Below, in pieces: positions 28,260 through 57,728 of a stretch of DNA of 63,663 nt (position 1 is the first letter of the stretch; each line of letters starts with the position of its first letter). The notes below the pieces were generated by a model that worked only from the letters and a program-made list of their open reading frames with translations, was not told where the DNA came from and made no database searches. The translations under genes were made by a program, and so were the position numbers. This DNA comes from Syntrophobacter sp. SbD2 (GTDB lineage: Bacteria > Desulfobacterota > Binatia > UBA9968): contig CAMDBU010000011.1 of NCBI GenBank assembly GCA_945889495.1, forward strand, positions 1 through 63,663. The letters run 5' to 3'.

Positions 28260-29420
28260 CTACATGAAATGCACGAAGATTGAGTTGGCGAGCATAAGCC
28301 CTTTGGCGGTGAAGCGTAAAAATCGCGCTTGTTCGATCAACAGCTCGCCGTCGATCCAGCCATCGATCTGCGGATAAAACTCGCGCGGCGTCTGGCCGAA
28401 GCGCTGGCGAAATGTTTCCACGCGAATGCCCTCGGTCATGCGCAGGCCCAGGAACATGAACTCGGCGGCGGCTTTATGGGCGTCGATGATTTCGCGCTCG
28501 ACTTCGGCCTGCTGGGTTGCAGCAACCTGCGCCATGTATTTGGCGGGACTCTTCTCATTGTTCCAGCGCAGTCCGGCGACGCCGTCGGCCTCGCGCCGGT
28601 AGCTATGGGCGCCAGCGCCGAGGCCCAGGTAATCGCCGCTATGCCAGTAGTTGACGTTATGGAGCGAGTGGAACCAGGGGCGGGCATAGTTGGAGATCTC
28701 ATAGCGCTTCAAACCGGCGGCGCCGAGTTTGGCGTCGATCAATTCGGCCATGGCGATCTCGGTGTCTTCGTCGAGATTGGCCATCCTGCCGGCGCGGTAC
28801 TCATGATGAAACGGCGTGCCCTCTTCGAAAGTAAGATTGTAAGCCGACAGATGGGGCGGCTGAAACTCCAGCGCGCTGTCGAGATCGGCGTCAAGATCGG
28901 CAAGCGATTGGCCGGGATTGGCGAAGATCAGATCGAAACTAAAATTGTCGAAGCCCGATTGTTTGACGATGTTCAAAGCCGTTTTGGCTTCTTCCGCCGA
29001 GTGCACCCGCCCCAAAAATTTCAGCAGCTTGGGCTGGAACGATTGCACGCCGACGCTGATGCGGTTGACACCGGCGTCGCGGTAGCCGGGAAAGTATGCG
29101 GCGTCCACCGTGCCGGGATTGGCTTCCATGGTGATCTCGCAATCGTTGGCGATGGGAAAGGTCGCCGCCGCCCAGGCGAGCAGTTTGCCGATGCTCGCCG
29201 GTTTGAACGTCGACGGCGTGCCGCCGCCGAAAAAGATGCTCTGCAGCGTACGGCCGCGCCAGCCGTCTTTCCCACCGTAAAGTTCCAGTTCGCGTAATAG
29301 TGCATCGGTATACCCGTCTTCCGGGATCTGCGCGACGACGTGGGAATTGAAATCGCAGTAGGGACACTTGCTGATGCAGTAGGGAATATGAATGTAGAGA
29401 GAAAACGGCTCGCTCTTCAT
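28260..29420 (-). CDS. hemW: radical SAM heme chaperone HemW-like
   Basis: The 386-residue protein has the radical-SAM cluster motif CISKCPYC at residues 15-22, IFFGGGTPSTFKP near 65 and NRISVGVQSFQPKLLKFLGR near 120, as in HemW. HemW differs from true coproporphyrinogen dehydrogenase HemN by lacking the extra N-terminal cysteine, and this protein has HIPYCISKC with no preceding Cys. It therefore probably delivers heme rather than oxidising coproporphyrinogen. The ATG is preceded by a weak GGAG about 10 bases upstream. Confidence 0.88.
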   Translation of the reverse strand: MKSEPFSLYIHIPYCISKCPYCDFNSHVVAQIPEDGYTDALLRELELYGGKDGWRGRTLQSIFFGGGTPSTFKPASIGKLLAWAAATFPIANDCEITMEANPGTVDAAYFPGYRDAGVNRISVGVQSFQPKLLKFLGRVHSAEEAKTALNIVKQSGFDNFSFDLIFANPGQSLADLDADLDSALEFQPPHLSAYNLTFEEGTPFHHEYRAGRMANLDEDTEIAMAELIDAKLGAAGLKRYEISNYARPWFHSLHNVNYWHSGDYLGLGAGAHSYRREADGVAGLRWNNEKSPAKYMAQVAATQQAEVEREIIDAHKAAAEFMFLGLRMTEGIRVETFRQRFGQTPREFYPQIDGWIDGELLIEQARFLRFTAKGLMLANSIFVHFM

Positions 29421-29542: not shown

Positions 29543-30322
29543 ATGGCCGATCTAGCTGACACGATTCGCAACATCCCGCTGTTCTCCGGCCTGTCGCGTG
29601 AGGATGTCGCCAAGATCATGGGCCACTTGGTGGAGGTGAGCTTTGGCGCCGGCGAGAAGATTTTTTCCCAGGGCGACCAGGGCGACGCGCTTTATTTGAT
29701 TCAATCGGGCGCGCTCCATGTCCAGGTGGACAGCGGCGGCGGTCACGCCGAGACCATCGCCGTGTTGGGCGCCCAGGAATATTTTGGCGAGATGGCGCTA
29801 CTATCGTCGGCGGTGCGCTCGGCCACGGTGATCGCGGTGAAGGATGCGATTCTGTGGAAACTCAGCCGGGAGTCTTGGGATGATTTGATCGCCAAACATT
29901 CGACTTGGCTGAAGCACTTCTGCGCCGTATTAAGCCAGCGGCTGTCGGAAATGGACCGGCAGTATTCTCAAGGCCGCCAAGCCTTCGATTCCCTGGCGGA
30001 AGAATTTTACGGCAAACGGCCGGCCGAAGAGCAACAGTTCTACCGCCATGCCGCGCTACTCGCGACCATCGATCCGGCTAGCGCCGACAGATTGCTGCAA
30101 TGCGATGGCGCCGGGCGATATCTCGCCACACTGGAAGCGAGCCAGCTGCCGCTCTTGCGCCGGGTGGATGGCGGTTACCAGCTCCATGGTTTTTTCCGCG
30201 AGTTCTTGACCGAGCGGTTGATTGATAGTGAAGGCCGGGAAAACCGCGCCAACTGCATGGTCAGTTCGCCGCGCGCTATGAAACTCTGGGCGATTGGCCG
30301 GCGGCTATCGAACAGAGTTTAG
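29543..30322 (+). CDS. cyclic-nucleotide-binding N-terminal part of a frameshifted SLC13 transporter
   Basis: Residues 10-130 form a cyclic-nucleotide-binding domain with EKIFSQGDQGDALYLIQSG and the phosphate cassette YFGEMALLSSAVRSATV. Residues 150-230 resemble the winged-helix segment of MalT-like regulators (YQLHGFFREFLTERL). The frame runs out at 30322 after about 27 non-homologous residues. One base appears to be missing in the A run at 30240-30243: shifting frame there continues into a TPR-like stretch and then a transporter. So the real gene probably spans 29543-32190. The ATG follows no clear ribosome site. Confidence 0.8.
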   Translation: MADLADTIRNIPLFSGLSREDVAKIMGHLVEVSFGAGEKIFSQGDQGDALYLIQSGALHVQVDSGGGHAETIAVLGAQEYFGEMALLSSAVRSATVIAVKDAILWKLSRESWDDLIAKHSTWLKHFCAVLSQRLSEMDRQYSQGRQAFDSLAEEFYGKRPAEEQQFYRHAALLATIDPASADRLLQCDGAGRYLATLEASQLPLLRRVDGGYQLHGFFREFLTERLIDSEGRENRANCMVSSPRAMKLWAIGRRLSNRV

Positions 30323-30333
30323 CGGCGCAGGAT

Positions 30334-32190
30334 TTGGCCAACGCCAGCCGCTTGTTAAGCGCGCATAAGGATCAGCTGCTGGCGGACCTGCCGCTCTTGG
30401 TCAAGAATTCAGTCAGCGCCATTCCTGCTGAAATCGTGCACCAAGATGTCGCCTTGGTGTTGCTGCAAGTGGACGCATTGTGCGCGCTGAACGACCAAGC
30501 GGCGGCGCTGCGTTGCCTGAAGGACGCGTTGACCCGGCGCGCTGTGGCCATCGGCGCGGCGACGCTGGCGCGCTATTTTGCCGACGCCGATCGGATGGCT
30601 GGCGCCGGCGAGCCGCGCCAGGCGCTCACTTACCTGCGTAACGCTTTGAGTCTGGCGGCGCAGCAGGAAAACGCCCAGTCGAGCACTGGCGACAGCGATG
30701 GCGCGGCGCTGCGCAGCGCCATGAGCGCCAGCAAGCGCGATGCGACGACGCTGCCGGGGCGCAAATGGTTCGCCGCGTTTACCGGCGGCGAAAATTTCCC
30801 CCTCGGCACTTGGTTCGGCGCGGCTCTTGGTATCGGTCTGTGGGGCTATCTGTGGTTCTTCACGCCGGCCATCGGTTTGTCGCCCAACGCGACCAAGCAG
30901 TTGGCGATTTTGCTTTTCACTTTGATCTTCTGGGTGTTTCGCATCCTGCCCGATTACGGCGTCGCGCTGATTTTCGCCTTGGGCTTTATCATCTCCGGCA
31001 TGGCCAAGCCGGAGGTGGTGCTGGGCGGCTTCGCCAGCACTACCTGGTTCATGACTCTCGGCGTTTTGGGTCTCGGCGCGGCGATCACCAGCACCGGCTT
31101 GTTCTACCGTTTCTCGCTTCAACTAGTCCGCTACTTTCCGCTCAAGTATAACTGGCAAATCTTCGCCTTGGGCATCATGGGCATCGTCGTCATGGCGCTG
31201 ATCCCGCAGCAGAGCGCGCGCACGGCGATCATTAGTCAAATGCTGCTCAATCTGTCTGAAAGCTTGGGTTACAAAAATCCCTCGCGAGCGTCCACCGGAC
31301 TCTTCGTCGCGAGCTTTCTCGGCCTCGGCCAGTTGGGTTTTCTCTTCCTCACCGGTTCGACCACCAGTTTGATCGCCTGGGGTCTGTTGGCGCCCGAGGT
31401 GCGCGCGCAGTTTACCTGGGGTTATTGGTTTGTCGCCGCGCTGCCGCCGACTTTGATCGTCACCGCGATCATCGTCGGCGCCACCATGTGGTTGTACCAG
31501 CCTGAGTCGCAGTCGCAGGTGTCCTACAAGATGGTCCAGACGCAGCTGGAAATTCTTGGCCCGCTGTCGAAGTATGAATGGATCACCCTCGCCGTGTTGT
31601 GCGCCACCGTCACCGGCTGGCTCACCGGCTCCATGCACAAAATCGATGGCGCCTGGGTTTCTCTGCTCGCCATTTGCGTCTTGATCAACACCGGCGTGCT
31701 CGGTTTTGGCATGCTGAAAAAAAGCATCGACTGGGAGATGCTGATCTACATGGGCGCGACCCTGAGCATTCCGGCGCTGCTCACCGAGGCCAAGATCGAT
31801 CAATGGCTGGTCAGCCTGCTGGCGCCGCTGGTGGTGCCATTCAAATCGACCCCGGCGCTGGCGTTCATCGTCATCGCGCTGATCACCTACTTGGTCAAGC
31901 TGGCGTTCACCAGCTTTCTCACCGTGGTGACCCTGGCGATCGCGCTGTTGCCGCTGGCGGCGGATTTACAGATCAATCCCTGGATCATGATCATGATCGT
32001 TCTGATGGCGTCGGAAGTGTGGTTTTTTCAGTTCCAAGTCGACTGGCACACGCTGGCGTTCGCCACCACCGAGGGTAGAGGCTTTCGCTATAGCGATATG
32101 AACCGCATCCACCTGTTCTACGCCGCGGCCTATCTGATCGCCCTGGTCGCGGCGATTCCCTACTGGCGCTATCTTGGCTTGATCGGCTGA
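30334..32190 (+). CDS. SLC13/DASS-family transporter, C-terminal part of the frameshifted gene
   Basis: Read from about 30241 in this frame, the sequence gives HGQFAARYETLGDWPAAIEQ, a MalT-like helical repeat that continues the upstream protein; a linker and about eleven membrane helices follow from about residue 150 of this frame. The SLC13 features are GLWGYLWFFTPAIGLSPNATKQ and IPQQSARTAIISQML, with the second half repeating this topology. The family moves sodium with dicarboxylates, sulfate or similar anions. Fusion to a cyclic-nucleotide-binding domain suggests ligand-gated activity; this is inference. The TTG at 30334 is only the first start codon available after the frameshift. Confidence 0.82.
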   Translation: MANASRLLSAHKDQLLADLPLLVKNSVSAIPAEIVHQDVALVLLQVDALCALNDQAAALRCLKDALTRRAVAIGAATLARYFADADRMAGAGEPRQALTYLRNALSLAAQQENAQSSTGDSDGAALRSAMSASKRDATTLPGRKWFAAFTGGENFPLGTWFGAALGIGLWGYLWFFTPAIGLSPNATKQLAILLFTLIFWVFRILPDYGVALIFALGFIISGMAKPEVVLGGFASTTWFMTLGVLGLGAAITSTGLFYRFSLQLVRYFPLKYNWQIFALGIMGIVVMALIPQQSARTAIISQMLLNLSESLGYKNPSRASTGLFVASFLGLGQLGFLFLTGSTTSLIAWGLLAPEVRAQFTWGYWFVAALPPTLIVTAIIVGATMWLYQPESQSQVSYKMVQTQLEILGPLSKYEWITLAVLCATVTGWLTGSMHKIDGAWVSLLAICVLINTGVLGFGMLKKSIDWEMLIYMGATLSIPALLTEAKIDQWLVSLLAPLVVPFKSTPALAFIVIALITYLVKLAFTSFLTVVTLAIALLPLAADLQINPWIMIMIVLMASEVWFFQFQVDWHTLAFATTEGRGFRYSDMNRIHLFYAAAYLIALVAAIPYWRYLGLIG

Positions 32191-32426: not shown

Positions 32427-32580
32427 GGCGGAGTCGCGGCGCGGCGAGCGCCGGCGAATTGACATAGGTAGCAGCGCTGGCGGCGCGGCGATTCGTTTGC
32501 CGGCGCGCCGGGCGATTGTGTATCATCGCGGTGTTGCGTATCATCGCGGTTGAGACACTCGGGAGGCATGGGAGGTGGCG

Positions 32581-33567
32581 ATGGCGGCGGACCTGGACAG
32601 TTCAGCTCAACTAACGACCGCGGTGGATTCGACCTATGCGGTCGATTTTCATGGCCGCGGCGGATCGCTGTTCGGCATTCAGATCGTCAATTTATTTCTC
32701 GGCTTGATCACGCTGGGGATTTATTCCTTCTGGGGCCGGGTCAAGGTGCGCGCTTATTTGGCGAGCCTGACCGAGTTTGCCGGCTACCGCTTCGCCTATC
32801 ATGGCACCGGCAAGGAGTTGTTCATCGGCTGGTTGAAGGCGCTGGTGCTGTTCGGCATTCCGCTGTTCGTTCTGGCGCTGTTGCAGGTGATCGTCGGCAT
32901 CGAGTCGGGACTGTTCAATATTTTCCAAGTGCTGATTTATCTCGTCGTCGGTGTTTTCATTCCAGTCGCCATGGTCAATGCCCGGCGCTATCGTTTGAGC
33001 CGGATATCGTGGCGCGGCGTGCGCTTTTCCTTTCGCGGCGGCGTGCGCGAGTTCATGGCGATTTATGTCAAAGGTTGGCTGCTGACGGTTTTGACCTTGG
33101 GCTTTTACTATCCGTTTTGGCAGAACCGGCGGCAGAGTTTCATGATCGGCGATTCCTACTTCGGCAATCAGAAATTCGCCTTCGACGGCCGTGGCGGCGA
33201 TCTGTTCTGGAGCTTCGTGTTGCATGTCGCGCTGACGATTCCAACGTTTTTCCTGTGCTGGCTGTGGTACGCGGCGCGGGTGCAGCGTTACTACGCCGAG
33301 CATACTTCTTTTCAAGCCGCGCGCTTGCGCTCGACGGTGACTGGCGGCGGCATGTTGGGACTGATGATCGGCAACGCGGTGCTGTTCGTTTTGACCTTGG
33401 GCTTGGGCTGGTCATGGATCACGGTGCGTAACCTACGCTACTATGCCAGTCATCTAACCATGGTCGGCGCCCTCGACGTGGCCGGCGTCATGCAAGAAGT
33501 TCAAAGCGCGACGGCCACCGGCGAGGGGTTGTCGGGCTTTCTCGATCTCGACTTCGATCTCGGTTGA
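32581..33567 (+). CDS. DUF898 (YjgN-like) membrane protein
   Basis: The 328-residue protein carries two copies of the DUF898 pattern, FHGRGGSLFGIQIVNLFLG near residue 25 and FDGRGGDLFWSFVLHVALT near 205. About six hydrophobic helices and basic loops such as WGRVKVRAYLASLT follow each. GGAGGT stands 4-10 bases before the ATG at 32581; a GTG six bases upstream is possible. It is 21 bp from the M48 protease gene. DUF898 and M48 genes are often paired; the function of DUF898 is not established. Confidence 0.85.
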   Translation: MAADLDSSAQLTTAVDSTYAVDFHGRGGSLFGIQIVNLFLGLITLGIYSFWGRVKVRAYLASLTEFAGYRFAYHGTGKELFIGWLKALVLFGIPLFVLALLQVIVGIESGLFNIFQVLIYLVVGVFIPVAMVNARRYRLSRISWRGVRFSFRGGVREFMAIYVKGWLLTVLTLGFYYPFWQNRRQSFMIGDSYFGNQKFAFDGRGGDLFWSFVLHVALTIPTFFLCWLWYAARVQRYYAEHTSFQAARLRSTVTGGGMLGLMIGNAVLFVLTLGLGWSWITVRNLRYYASHLTMVGALDVAGVMQEVQSATATGEGLSGFLDLDFDLG

Positions 33568-56324: not shown

Positions 56325-56747
56325 GCGCGCCGCGTTCTTTCGCTGCTAAACGTTTTCCCACATCGCCGGTGCCCTGCGGCAATTCGCTGCTACCGGAACG
56401 ACCGCTCGCTGGGAGTAGCAAATCGACTACTCGGTGTCGCCAATTTGCTACACTTGGCACCTCACTGCGGTTCGCTTTCGCTAATCCCGCCAGCCAGGTT
56501 TCTGGCGTAACTTCCGTAGCTTAACCGGTCGACATCGCCAATTATCCGTACTGGTACAACGATTGCGCTAGAGGTTTGAGAGGTTGGTCTTGGGATCTGA
56601 TGGTTGAGGCTCGCGAGCGTCATTGGCCAATCGCGAACTAACCGCTGGACAGCGGCCGATTTTCGGCGGTAGGCTGGTGGCCCAGGAGATTCGATAGGCG
56701 TGAGGCGTGAGCTCGAAGGCGTGAGTAAGATCATCGGAGCGAAAAAT
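56325..56747. other. 420-bp gap, no gene; lower GC
   Basis: This stretch before the broken SBP gene has no open frame I can support and looks less GC-rich than its neighbours. It contains CCGGTCGACATCGCC-like promoter-free sequence and no hairpin of note. It may be part of a transferred segment together with the SBP gene that follows. Confidence 0.4.
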
Positions 56748-57728
56748 ATGATCGGTAAATATTGTTTCTACTTGCTGACCACTATCTTGCTGAGCGCTGC
56801 GGTTCCTGTTCGGGCCCAGCAGCCAGTGAGAATTCCCCGGATTGGACTTCTGATCGCGGCCTCTGCGGCCTCTAATGCGGCCCGTGTCGAAGCCTTTCGC
56901 CAACGGCTGCGTGAGATTGGCTATGTCGAAGGGAAAAACCTTGTAGTTGAGTACCGATACGCGGATGGGAAACTTGAACGGCTGCCCGAGCTAGCAGGCG
57001 AGCTGGTTGGTCTCAAAGTTGACGTCCTTGTCGCCTCTGGGTCGGCTATTCTAGCTGCTAAGAAGGCGAGCGCGACGATTCCCATCGTATTCGCTGGTTC
57101 CGGCGATCCCGTAGGAACTGGGCTAGTCTCCAGTCTGGCGCGCCCAGGCGGGAATATCACCGGACTTTCCAACATGGCGCTGGATCTAGATGGCAAACGG
57201 TTGGAACTGCTCAAGGAAGCCTTCCCCAAGGTTGCCCGGGTGGCCTTCCTCTGGGGAGGGGGTGGCCCGAGGGGAAACCAGGCCCTCACAGAATTGGAAC
57301 CTGTGGGCCAGCAGTTGAGGGTCAAACTTCTATCGCTTGAGGTGCGAAGCCTTGACGATTTTGAGGGCGCATTCGCGCGAGCCAAAAAAGAACGCGCCTA
57401 GGCGCTCATTACGTCCACAGGTGGACTTGTCACTACTCAGCAACGCCAAGTGTTGGACTTCGCGGCCAAGAACCGCTTGCCGGCGATGTATCCGAACAAT
57501 GAGTTTGTTGAGGCCGGCGGCTTGATGAGCTACGCGGCGAACAATACGGATTTATTCCGGCGCGCCGCTGACTTTGTCGACAAGATCTTGAAAGGCACCA
57601 AGCCCGCCGACATTCCCGTCGAGCAGCCGACGAAGTTTGAGTTCGCGATCAATCTCAAGGCAGCCAAGCAGATCGGCGTGACGATCCCGCCGAATGTGCT
57701 GGCGCGGGCGTATCGGGTGATACGCTAA
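56748..57728 (+). pseudogene. ABC_sub_bind-type substrate-binding protein interrupted by an in-frame amber codon
   Basis: The first 218 codons give a signal peptide ending at VRAQQP, then RIPRIGLLIAASAASNAARV, VEYRYADGKLERLPELAGEL and NITGLSNMALDLDGKRLEL, typical of this tripartite-like SBP family. At 57399-57401 a TAG interrupts the frame; beyond it the same frame continues ALITSTGGLVTTQQRQVLDF, AMYPNNEFVEAGGLMSYAAN and FAINLKAAKQIGVTIPPNVL. One base change (GAG to TAG, for instance) explains it. Codon use is less GC-rich than the neighbours. The ATG at 56748 is used. Confidence 0.85.

Follow-up and report, generated by a model that had tools for sequence, protein, structure and literature searches.

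Two consecutive reading frames on the forward strand of contig CAMDBU010000011.1 (assembly GCA_945889495.1, Syntrophobacter sp. SbD2) raise the question whether they represent two genes or one and, if one, what a protein of such composition might do. The stretch analysed comprises positions 1 to 63,663 of this contig and is referred to as the window in the following. Between positions 29,543 and 32,190, a cyclic-nucleotide-binding (CNB) domain and the first part of a MalT-like region are encoded in one frame, while a permease of the SLC13/DASS type is found in another. The window gene is a copy of a three-part membrane protein, disabled by one missing base in the given sequence, and the fusion of CNB domain, MalT-like region and SLC13 permease is virtually certain to be real.

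This conclusion is based on matches of both frames to abutting parts of one and the same profile of 888 positions, which was made from 11 intact relatives (alignment A1). The first frame covers profile positions 1-237 (E 3.7e-104) and the second one positions 234-888 (E 2.0e-303), which excludes a chance joining of two frames. Upon separate alignment of the two halves, homology of the first open reading frame (ORF1) stops past codon 233 (..EGRE) and picks up at PRQLHG.. in the other frame. The gap between the two window halves amounts to exactly one residue, and identical spacing is found in 14 rows reading through the junction (11 intact genes, a second copy on contig C14 of the same genome, and pieces of the copies G002:C50 and G003). 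Across the junction, the zero frame runs CGG GAA AAC CGC and the frame one base back GGA AAA CCG CGC CAA CTG CAT. Homology and the one-residue spacing together imply that one base is missing, or re-read, in an otherwise continuous protein. In Pfam, the window sequence scores 78.5 bits for PF00027 (CNB) and 125.3 bits for PF00939 (SLC13/DASS), compared to a gathering score of 27 for the latter. A separate start of the second ORF at TTG 30334, where by eye an AGGA lies just one base 5' of the TTG, was considered as well but rejected.

A single protein of about 880 residues, split by a one-base shift, had been proposed in the original prediction from the DNA sequence alone, together with a search for intact CNB-SLC13 fusions. 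Such fusions were found in 11 genomes of the family, and their lengths of 878-889 amino acids agree with the proposed size; ten of these proteins are 60-70% identical to the first. The tail at the end of the first frame, described as 27 residues without homology, does lack homology but consists of 26 codons plus the stop. For the opposite case, in which CNB protein and permease are separate genes, there is one possible example: in G013 (L043/L053), a TGA in the linker between the TPR part and the permease leaves two complete halves, possibly a natural separation of sensor and permease. Otherwise, the fusion is borne out.

Overall, 13 of the 25 family genomes contain a single match over (nearly) all 888 model positions, of which the 11 mentioned above lack an inner stop. 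Those relatives that have named records are 'Deltaproteobacteria' metagenome-assembled genomes (MAGs), apart from a single 'Proteobacteria' MAG and a single 'Candidatus Binatia' MAG. The C14 copy reads through the junction and is 58% identical to the window copy in its N part. Its homology stops inside the permease, 143 bases short of the contig end, and no remainder of this permease was found elsewhere in the assembly. Outside the family, the long form occurs in G037 (locus L022), a genome from a different family within the class, as a protein of about 800 amino acids with CNB, MalT-like and permease matches. Profile A1 at 1e-30 matches 6 of 297 genomes of the phylum, namely that of the window and five others whose forms are short or stand-alone; as for all samples of this kind used here, these are drawn genomes from selected phyla and not complete sets. 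Five family copies are broken: the window copy, G001 (with a TAG in the last part), G002:C50, G012:C322 and G013. The sister of the window gene, G002:C50 (L038, 6157-8801), is interrupted by a TAA within its first membrane helices and by a frameshift late in the gene, and is surrounded by HemW-like, DUF898-like, M48-like and metallo-β-lactamase (MBL) genes, the names being given partly by eye.

Regarding the cause of the shift, which is private to the window copy among the aligned rows, a recent loss or an error is almost certain as opposed to a programmed event, with recent loss and assembly error being about equally likely. Recent, real decay of a spare copy, to which a chance just short of even is assigned, is supported by the presence of a second copy on C14, although this copy may be incomplete and its ability to replace the window copy is not certain. 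In the tree, the window copy forms a clade with G020 (99/90), joined next by G002:C50 (97/83), apart from C14, and none of the three adjoins a gene for a substrate-binding protein (SBP). Such neighbours are treated below, but their distribution is relevant here, as three of the four SBP-less copies are broken (window, G002:C50 and G012:C322, not G020) versus two of the 14 SBP-bearing ones (G001 and G013). On the other hand, neither a second lesion nor an excess loss of conserved residues is present in the window copy, and the ratio of nonsynonymous to synonymous substitutions (dN/dS) is about 0.11-0.33 where computable and 0.48 when the C part is compared with the C14 copy, with dS near saturation. 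The end branches of the three clade members are long (0.24-0.25) but not unique, given a value of 0.28 for the SBP-bearing G016. A sequencing or assembly error, whose chance lies slightly further below even, would mean that the cell possesses an undamaged gene for the 880-amino-acid fusion. This agrees with a single lesion in 2.65 kb, with 248 of 262 family-invariant columns being kept (0.947, compared to 0.923-0.992 for the intact rows in a leave-one-out comparison), with an equal similarity of both window halves to G015 (142/233 and 398/637), and with a draft assembly of 239 contigs. The affected site, however, is just an A4, while 23 other runs of 4-7 bases (up to A7) in the gene are unshifted, and the sister G002:C50 is broken twice, by its own stop and shift, which makes decay of the lineage plausible. 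A programmed -1 frameshift at GGGAAAAC, also considered in the original prediction and yielding a CNB-MalT fragment besides the full transporter, is highly improbable: the direction needed is indeed -1 and the downstream structure is fairly stable (z -2.7, with 3/200 shuffles as good; z -2.9 in a scan of the gene), yet the zero-frame codons CGG GAA AAC give no in-phase X XXY YYZ heptamer, all 14 rows covering the site are unshifted, and 4/65 scan windows of the gene fold equally well.

The three parts of the protein were examined individually. Residues 1-140 represent the CNB domain, and solved relatives close to the family profile are PKA/PKG regulatory domains and CRP-type proteins, with a Z of about 11 in fold comparison. 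In the segment which we take to be the phosphate-binding cassette, the window copy has FGEMALLSSAVRSAT, with Gly-Glu and Arg present, and F81 G82 E83 M84 A85 L86 ... R92 A94 T95 are invariant in 11/11 intact proteins. Judged by these residues, the cyclic-nucleotide pocket of the long form looks usable.

The CNB domain precedes the MalT-like part and the permease follows it. Using the relatives' sequences, residues 144-300 match MalT (8bob_C, profile against PDB chain, E 4.7e-6) as well as the NCBIfam MalT model (3.3e-11), and the same chain superimposes on model residues 144-300 with a Z of 10.8 (2.4 Å, 154 residues). A TPR model matches 10/10 rows of the MalT-like region, near the region's end in the row shown, and the family profile for the region picks up both halves of the window gene. 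The full-length AlphaFold model, obtained with 8 rows, is poor, with a predicted local distance difference test (pLDDT) of 51.8 and a predicted template modelling score (pTM) of 0.34; pLDDT blocks range from 35 to 78 in the CNB part and from 61 to 89 in residues 141-380, while most of the permease stays below 41. Fold searches with this model were dominated by CNB rows, and MalT was one row among the best 50 listed. Neither a nucleoside triphosphatase domain nor a LuxR-type helix-turn-helix (HTH) was found among Pfam domains in the window protein at E up to 1. In MalT itself, winged helix and superhelix belong to the ATPase/sensor side of this STAND protein and not to its DNA-binding part. Hence, the original description of the region as MalT-like and 'transcription-factor-like' holds in its first half, while the second should not be read as DNA binding.

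For the permease, the window half was modelled separately with 18 rows (pLDDT 83, pTM 0.78), resulting in a complete DASS fold with a Z of 38.3 to NaDC3 and a TM score of 0.87 to plant DiT2.1. Comparison with VcINDY (5ul7) gave a Z of 33.9 (3.1 Å over 436 residues) and comparison with TRAP transporters Z values of 17-25, whereas LaINDY comes far down among the structural matches (Z 21.4, 7.1 Å), likewise other outward or asymmetric states. The first of two motifs, which presumably correspond to the Ser-Asn-Thr substrate/Na+ motif of DASS proteins, is PQQSART in the family and PSNSART in LaINDY; the second one is not evident in the same alignment. A plasmid search additionally yielded 16 plasmid records with distant SLC13 permeases.

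Table 1 Features at the split gene and its immediate neighbours (positions in the window)
Feature	Position	Strand	Remarks
ORF1, 259 aa: CNB domain and first part of MalT-like region	29543..30322	+	stop 30320-30322
Cyclic-nucleotide-binding domain PF00027, residues 32-119	29636..29899	+	Pfam
Phosphate-binding cassette (presumed) FGEMALLSSAVRSATV	29783..29830	+	Glu and Arg kept; family Gly 89 is Ser in window copy
MalT-type winged helix, first-frame part	29972..30241	+	boundaries carried over from relatives
Open second frame, permease-bearing	30232-32190	+	ORF listed from TTG 30334, 618 aa
Frame-change site	30238..30247	+	alignment of the two halves and codon reading
Out-of-frame tail of ORF1, codons 234-259	30242-30319	+	no homology
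Rest of winged helix and TPR-like superhelix, frame one base back	30244..30680	+	end approximate
SLC13/DASS permease (PF00939) and stop	30781..32190	+	Pfam and predicted structure
Radical SAM/HemN_C protein (HemW-like)	28260..29420	-	neighbour, outside proposed system
DUF898 protein	32575..33567	+	neighbour

Further information on a possible function was obtained from neighbouring genes. Eighteen long-form loci with a visible 5' side were scanned with profiles built from neighbouring genes, the flank widths being different. In 14 of them, a gene for an SBP of the PF04392 type is located directly upstream of the fusion on the same strand (G000:C14, G001, G002:C18, G003, G006, G007, G008, G010, G012:C276, G013, G015, G016, G017 and G019). 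None was found at the window copy, G002:C50, G012:C322 and G020, with only 1.4 kb of upstream sequence being available for the latter. Seven of the 14 neighbours served as seeds of the SBP profile and thus match by construction; among the seven non-seeds, the six uncut ones reach E values of 4e-132 to 4e-162, compared to 2e-22 to 6e-77 for other family members. Both upstream SBPs scanned with Pfam (2/2) were confirmed as PF04392. The distance between SBP gene and fusion is 1-14 bases in 10 measured cases and about 135 in G003. Eleven of the 18 loci also have a gene for a class III cyclase no more than about 3 kb away, of the response-regulator type in eight and of the CHASE2 type in four (both in G008), and all four cyclases scanned belong to PF00211 by Pfam. 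The common gene order is often response-regulator cyclase, MBL-fold protein (each where present), SBP (PF04392) and fusion. Three response-regulator cyclases examined have kept FLDLRGFT and FAGDG, which we take to be the metal Asp motifs of class III cyclases.

Several side observations were made on these genes. The response-regulator cyclase gene adjoining the fusion extends over two overlapping frames in L049 (G008), L052 (G015) and L041 (G002:C18). An orthologue of this cyclase without a fusion is present in L117 (G000:C3, 1313-2398), beside an SBP gene and redoxin/CcdA-like genes, the latter named by eye, and PhnC/PhnD-like ABC transporter genes (names by eye) are found near the fusion in three genomes (L054, L059 and L060). 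The PF04392 set of G000, the genome of the window, is very large and consists mostly of orphan-looking binding proteins. One of its genes, at 56673-57725 of the window, is split by an in-frame TAG (the two frames match profile positions 8-183 and 189-292), and further PF04392 copies with inner stops occur on C160 and C193.

In total, PF04392 gives 92 matches in G000, many of them in tandem arrays (contigs C133, C62, C120, C18 and C160). When the partner SBP of G015 was used as query against this genome (94 matches), the SBP beside the C14 copy reached 316 bits and the next one 205, indicating that the fusion-adjoining SBPs form a distinct subfamily.

Related pairs are also found among shorter CNB-DASS proteins without the MalT part. 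Here, an SBP gene lies directly downstream in six of nine loci, originating from Thiotrichales, two Planctomycetota, a Pleurocapsales cyanobacterium, a 'Deltaproteobacteria' MAG placed in Myxococcota, and Thiohalocapsa. Both genes overlap by 4 bases in three loci and are 235 bases apart in L067. Five of the six neighbours are among the SBP profile seeds, L069 being the non-seed, and all three scanned score above the PF04392 cut-off, two of them narrowly (26.7 and 29.2 versus 25.9). PF04392 matches number only 1, 1, 1, 4, 1 and 2 in the six genomes. They include the neighbour in five of six, and in three (G346, G347 and G349) it is the sole match, while the single weak match of G345 is on another contig than the DASS locus. 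Of 210 genomes from the order to which Thiohalocapsa belongs, 8 give a match at 1e-60, and seven of these have stand-alone permeases without a CNB match. An SBP-like gene follows directly downstream in six of these seven, the seventh being cut by the contig end, with PF04392 E values of 8e-9 to 7e-5 in 5/5 scanned and two above the cut-off. Among Planctomycetota, 3 of 294 genomes match profile A4 at 1e-60. Among the genomes sampled, the permease-SBP pair is uncommon. In the permease tree, nine SBP-paired rows form one clade (100/100) apart from the long forms, with other joins being unsure and some branches long. As a side observation, G017 and G012 of the same family contain another, only distantly related CNB-SLC13 fusion (L045 and L046), which is about 650 amino acids long and has neither a MalT part nor an SBP neighbour.

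Considered as a whole, these data are probably best explained by a cyclic-nucleotide-controlled, possibly SBP-fed DASS transporter, for which fusion and neighbours are observed while we infer gating, SBP delivery and a transported substrate. A response-regulator cyclase would raise cyclic adenosine or guanosine monophosphate (cAMP or cGMP) upon a signal. The nucleotide would be bound by the CNB domain, and the MalT-like module, having lost the ATPase of MalT, would then switch the permease. As the CNB domain takes the position of MalT's ATPase, the MalT-derived module may act as a conformational switch, converting ligand binding into a conformational signal. The SBP would catch its solute in the periplasm and, like the SBP of a TRAP system, pass it on to its permease. 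The window copy would then belong to a side lineage without SBP neighbour and be lost, in the course of being lost, or misread. Control of the permease by a cyclic nucleotide is the probable part of this scheme, whereas feeding by the SBP can be proposed only tentatively. A more far-reaching version is rather unlikely: a new class of SBP-dependent secondary transporters, in which, across several phyla, PF04392 proteins would hand their ligands to elevator permeases of the DASS type, with one family additionally being gated via CNB domain and MalT-derived switch by a nucleotide from the response-regulator cyclase of the same gene cluster.

Several observations weigh against a nucleotide-controlled, SBP-fed transporter. 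Neither an SBP nor a cyclase gene adjoins the window copy itself, and no match to either was found in 1.5 kb of 5' flank of L022, the long form outside the family. With about 90 PF04392 genes in the genome, some adjacency to SBP genes is to be expected, and five broken family copies suggest that the system is dispensable. In the three response-regulator cyclase sequences, an Arg occupies what we assume to be the position of the purine-selecting (adenine-selecting) Lys of class III adenylate cyclases, which renders the choice between cAMP and cGMP uncertain. The permease reaches 135.9 bits for NCBIfam TIGR00785 dass (sodium-coupled anion symporter), below the cut-off of 198.6, and by this score is a distant relative outside that subfamily. 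Among the short CNB-DASS loci, no SBP gene was found in the flanks scanned of L045, L046 and L073 (3/9), and the same holds for five further DASS loci (L074-L077 and L100; 0/5 in the flanks scanned). Moreover, the cassette Arg is replaced by Tyr in the six SBP-paired short forms (L065-L070), which makes cyclic-nucleotide control doubtful for them, while it is kept in L045, L046 and L073. SBP pairing and an intact cassette hence co-occur only in the long form.

Alternatively, SBP and CNB-DASS fusion might constitute a sensor (transceptor) that reports the solute to the cyclase, with the permease fold serving as signal relay. The deviating PQQSART motif and the response-regulator cyclase adjoining the fusion would fit such a role, but the full-length DASS fold close to working transporters and the strong conservation of the whole permease make it improbable. 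It is more improbable still that the adjacency of SBP and fusion is a mere by-product of the huge PF04392 number in these genomes, in line with the many arrayed matches in G000 and the missing pair at L022 and 4/18 family loci, since the fusion-adjoining SBPs form a distinct subfamily, the non-seed neighbours score far above other PF04392 members, and PF04392 is rare in the six short-form genomes from other phyla, where the neighbour is nevertheless usually among the matches. Thus, a cyclic-nucleotide-controlled DASS transporter, possibly fed by an SBP, remains the preferred reading.

Both of its components have counterparts in other families. DASS/SLC13 proteins (VcINDY, LaINDY, NaCT/NaDC3, plant DiT1/DiT2.1) have the same fold across the whole permease and belong to the same PF00939, while the present family adds N-terminal CNB and MalT-like parts, an adjoining SBP gene in relatives, and QQS in the first motif. 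With MalT, a STAND regulator, the fusion has the winged helix and the start of the superhelix in common but differs in the lack of a detected ATPase or C-terminal HTH, with the CNB domain in the ATPase's place and the permease behind. According to the accessible text of PMC12344293, TRAP, TTT and TAXI-GltS systems, the only SBP-dependent secondary transporters named there, with TAXI-GltS as the paper's own proposal, also have an SBP gene beside an elevator-type permease, either up- or downstream and with overlapping ends in some cases, and DASS and TRAP share a common fold. Here, in contrast, the SBP belongs to PF04392 instead of DctP, TAXI or TctC, the permease is a DASS protein, and the long form includes a cyclic-nucleotide module. 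CNB domains as plug-on domains of secondary transporters are likewise known from MFS-CNBD fusions (PMC10710835) and SLC9C1 (9ydf). These, however, concern other transporter families, and the accessible part of PMC10710835 mentions neither a MalT-like adaptor nor a linked SBP or cyclase. While CNB-fused transporters and SBP-dependent secondary transporters are therefore known in other families, the combinations DASS-CNB and DASS-SBP were not met in literature searches, several of them judged by title or abstract, which left many subscription papers and preprints outside their coverage.

The frameshift itself is of little importance. As stated in the accessible text of Jaques et al. 2025 (PMC12344293), only TRAP and TTT were known as secondary transporters using soluble binding proteins before TAXI-GltS, and further classes would test whether the elevator mechanism is what permits the use of SBPs. 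If true, the PF04392-DASS pair would add such a class, and within an elevator family whose structures have been studied well. With the long fusions, a signal maker, a receiver, a binding protein and a transporter are brought together in one gene cluster, so that few proteins would suffice to test whether a cyclic nucleotide directly controls a secondary transporter in bacteria.

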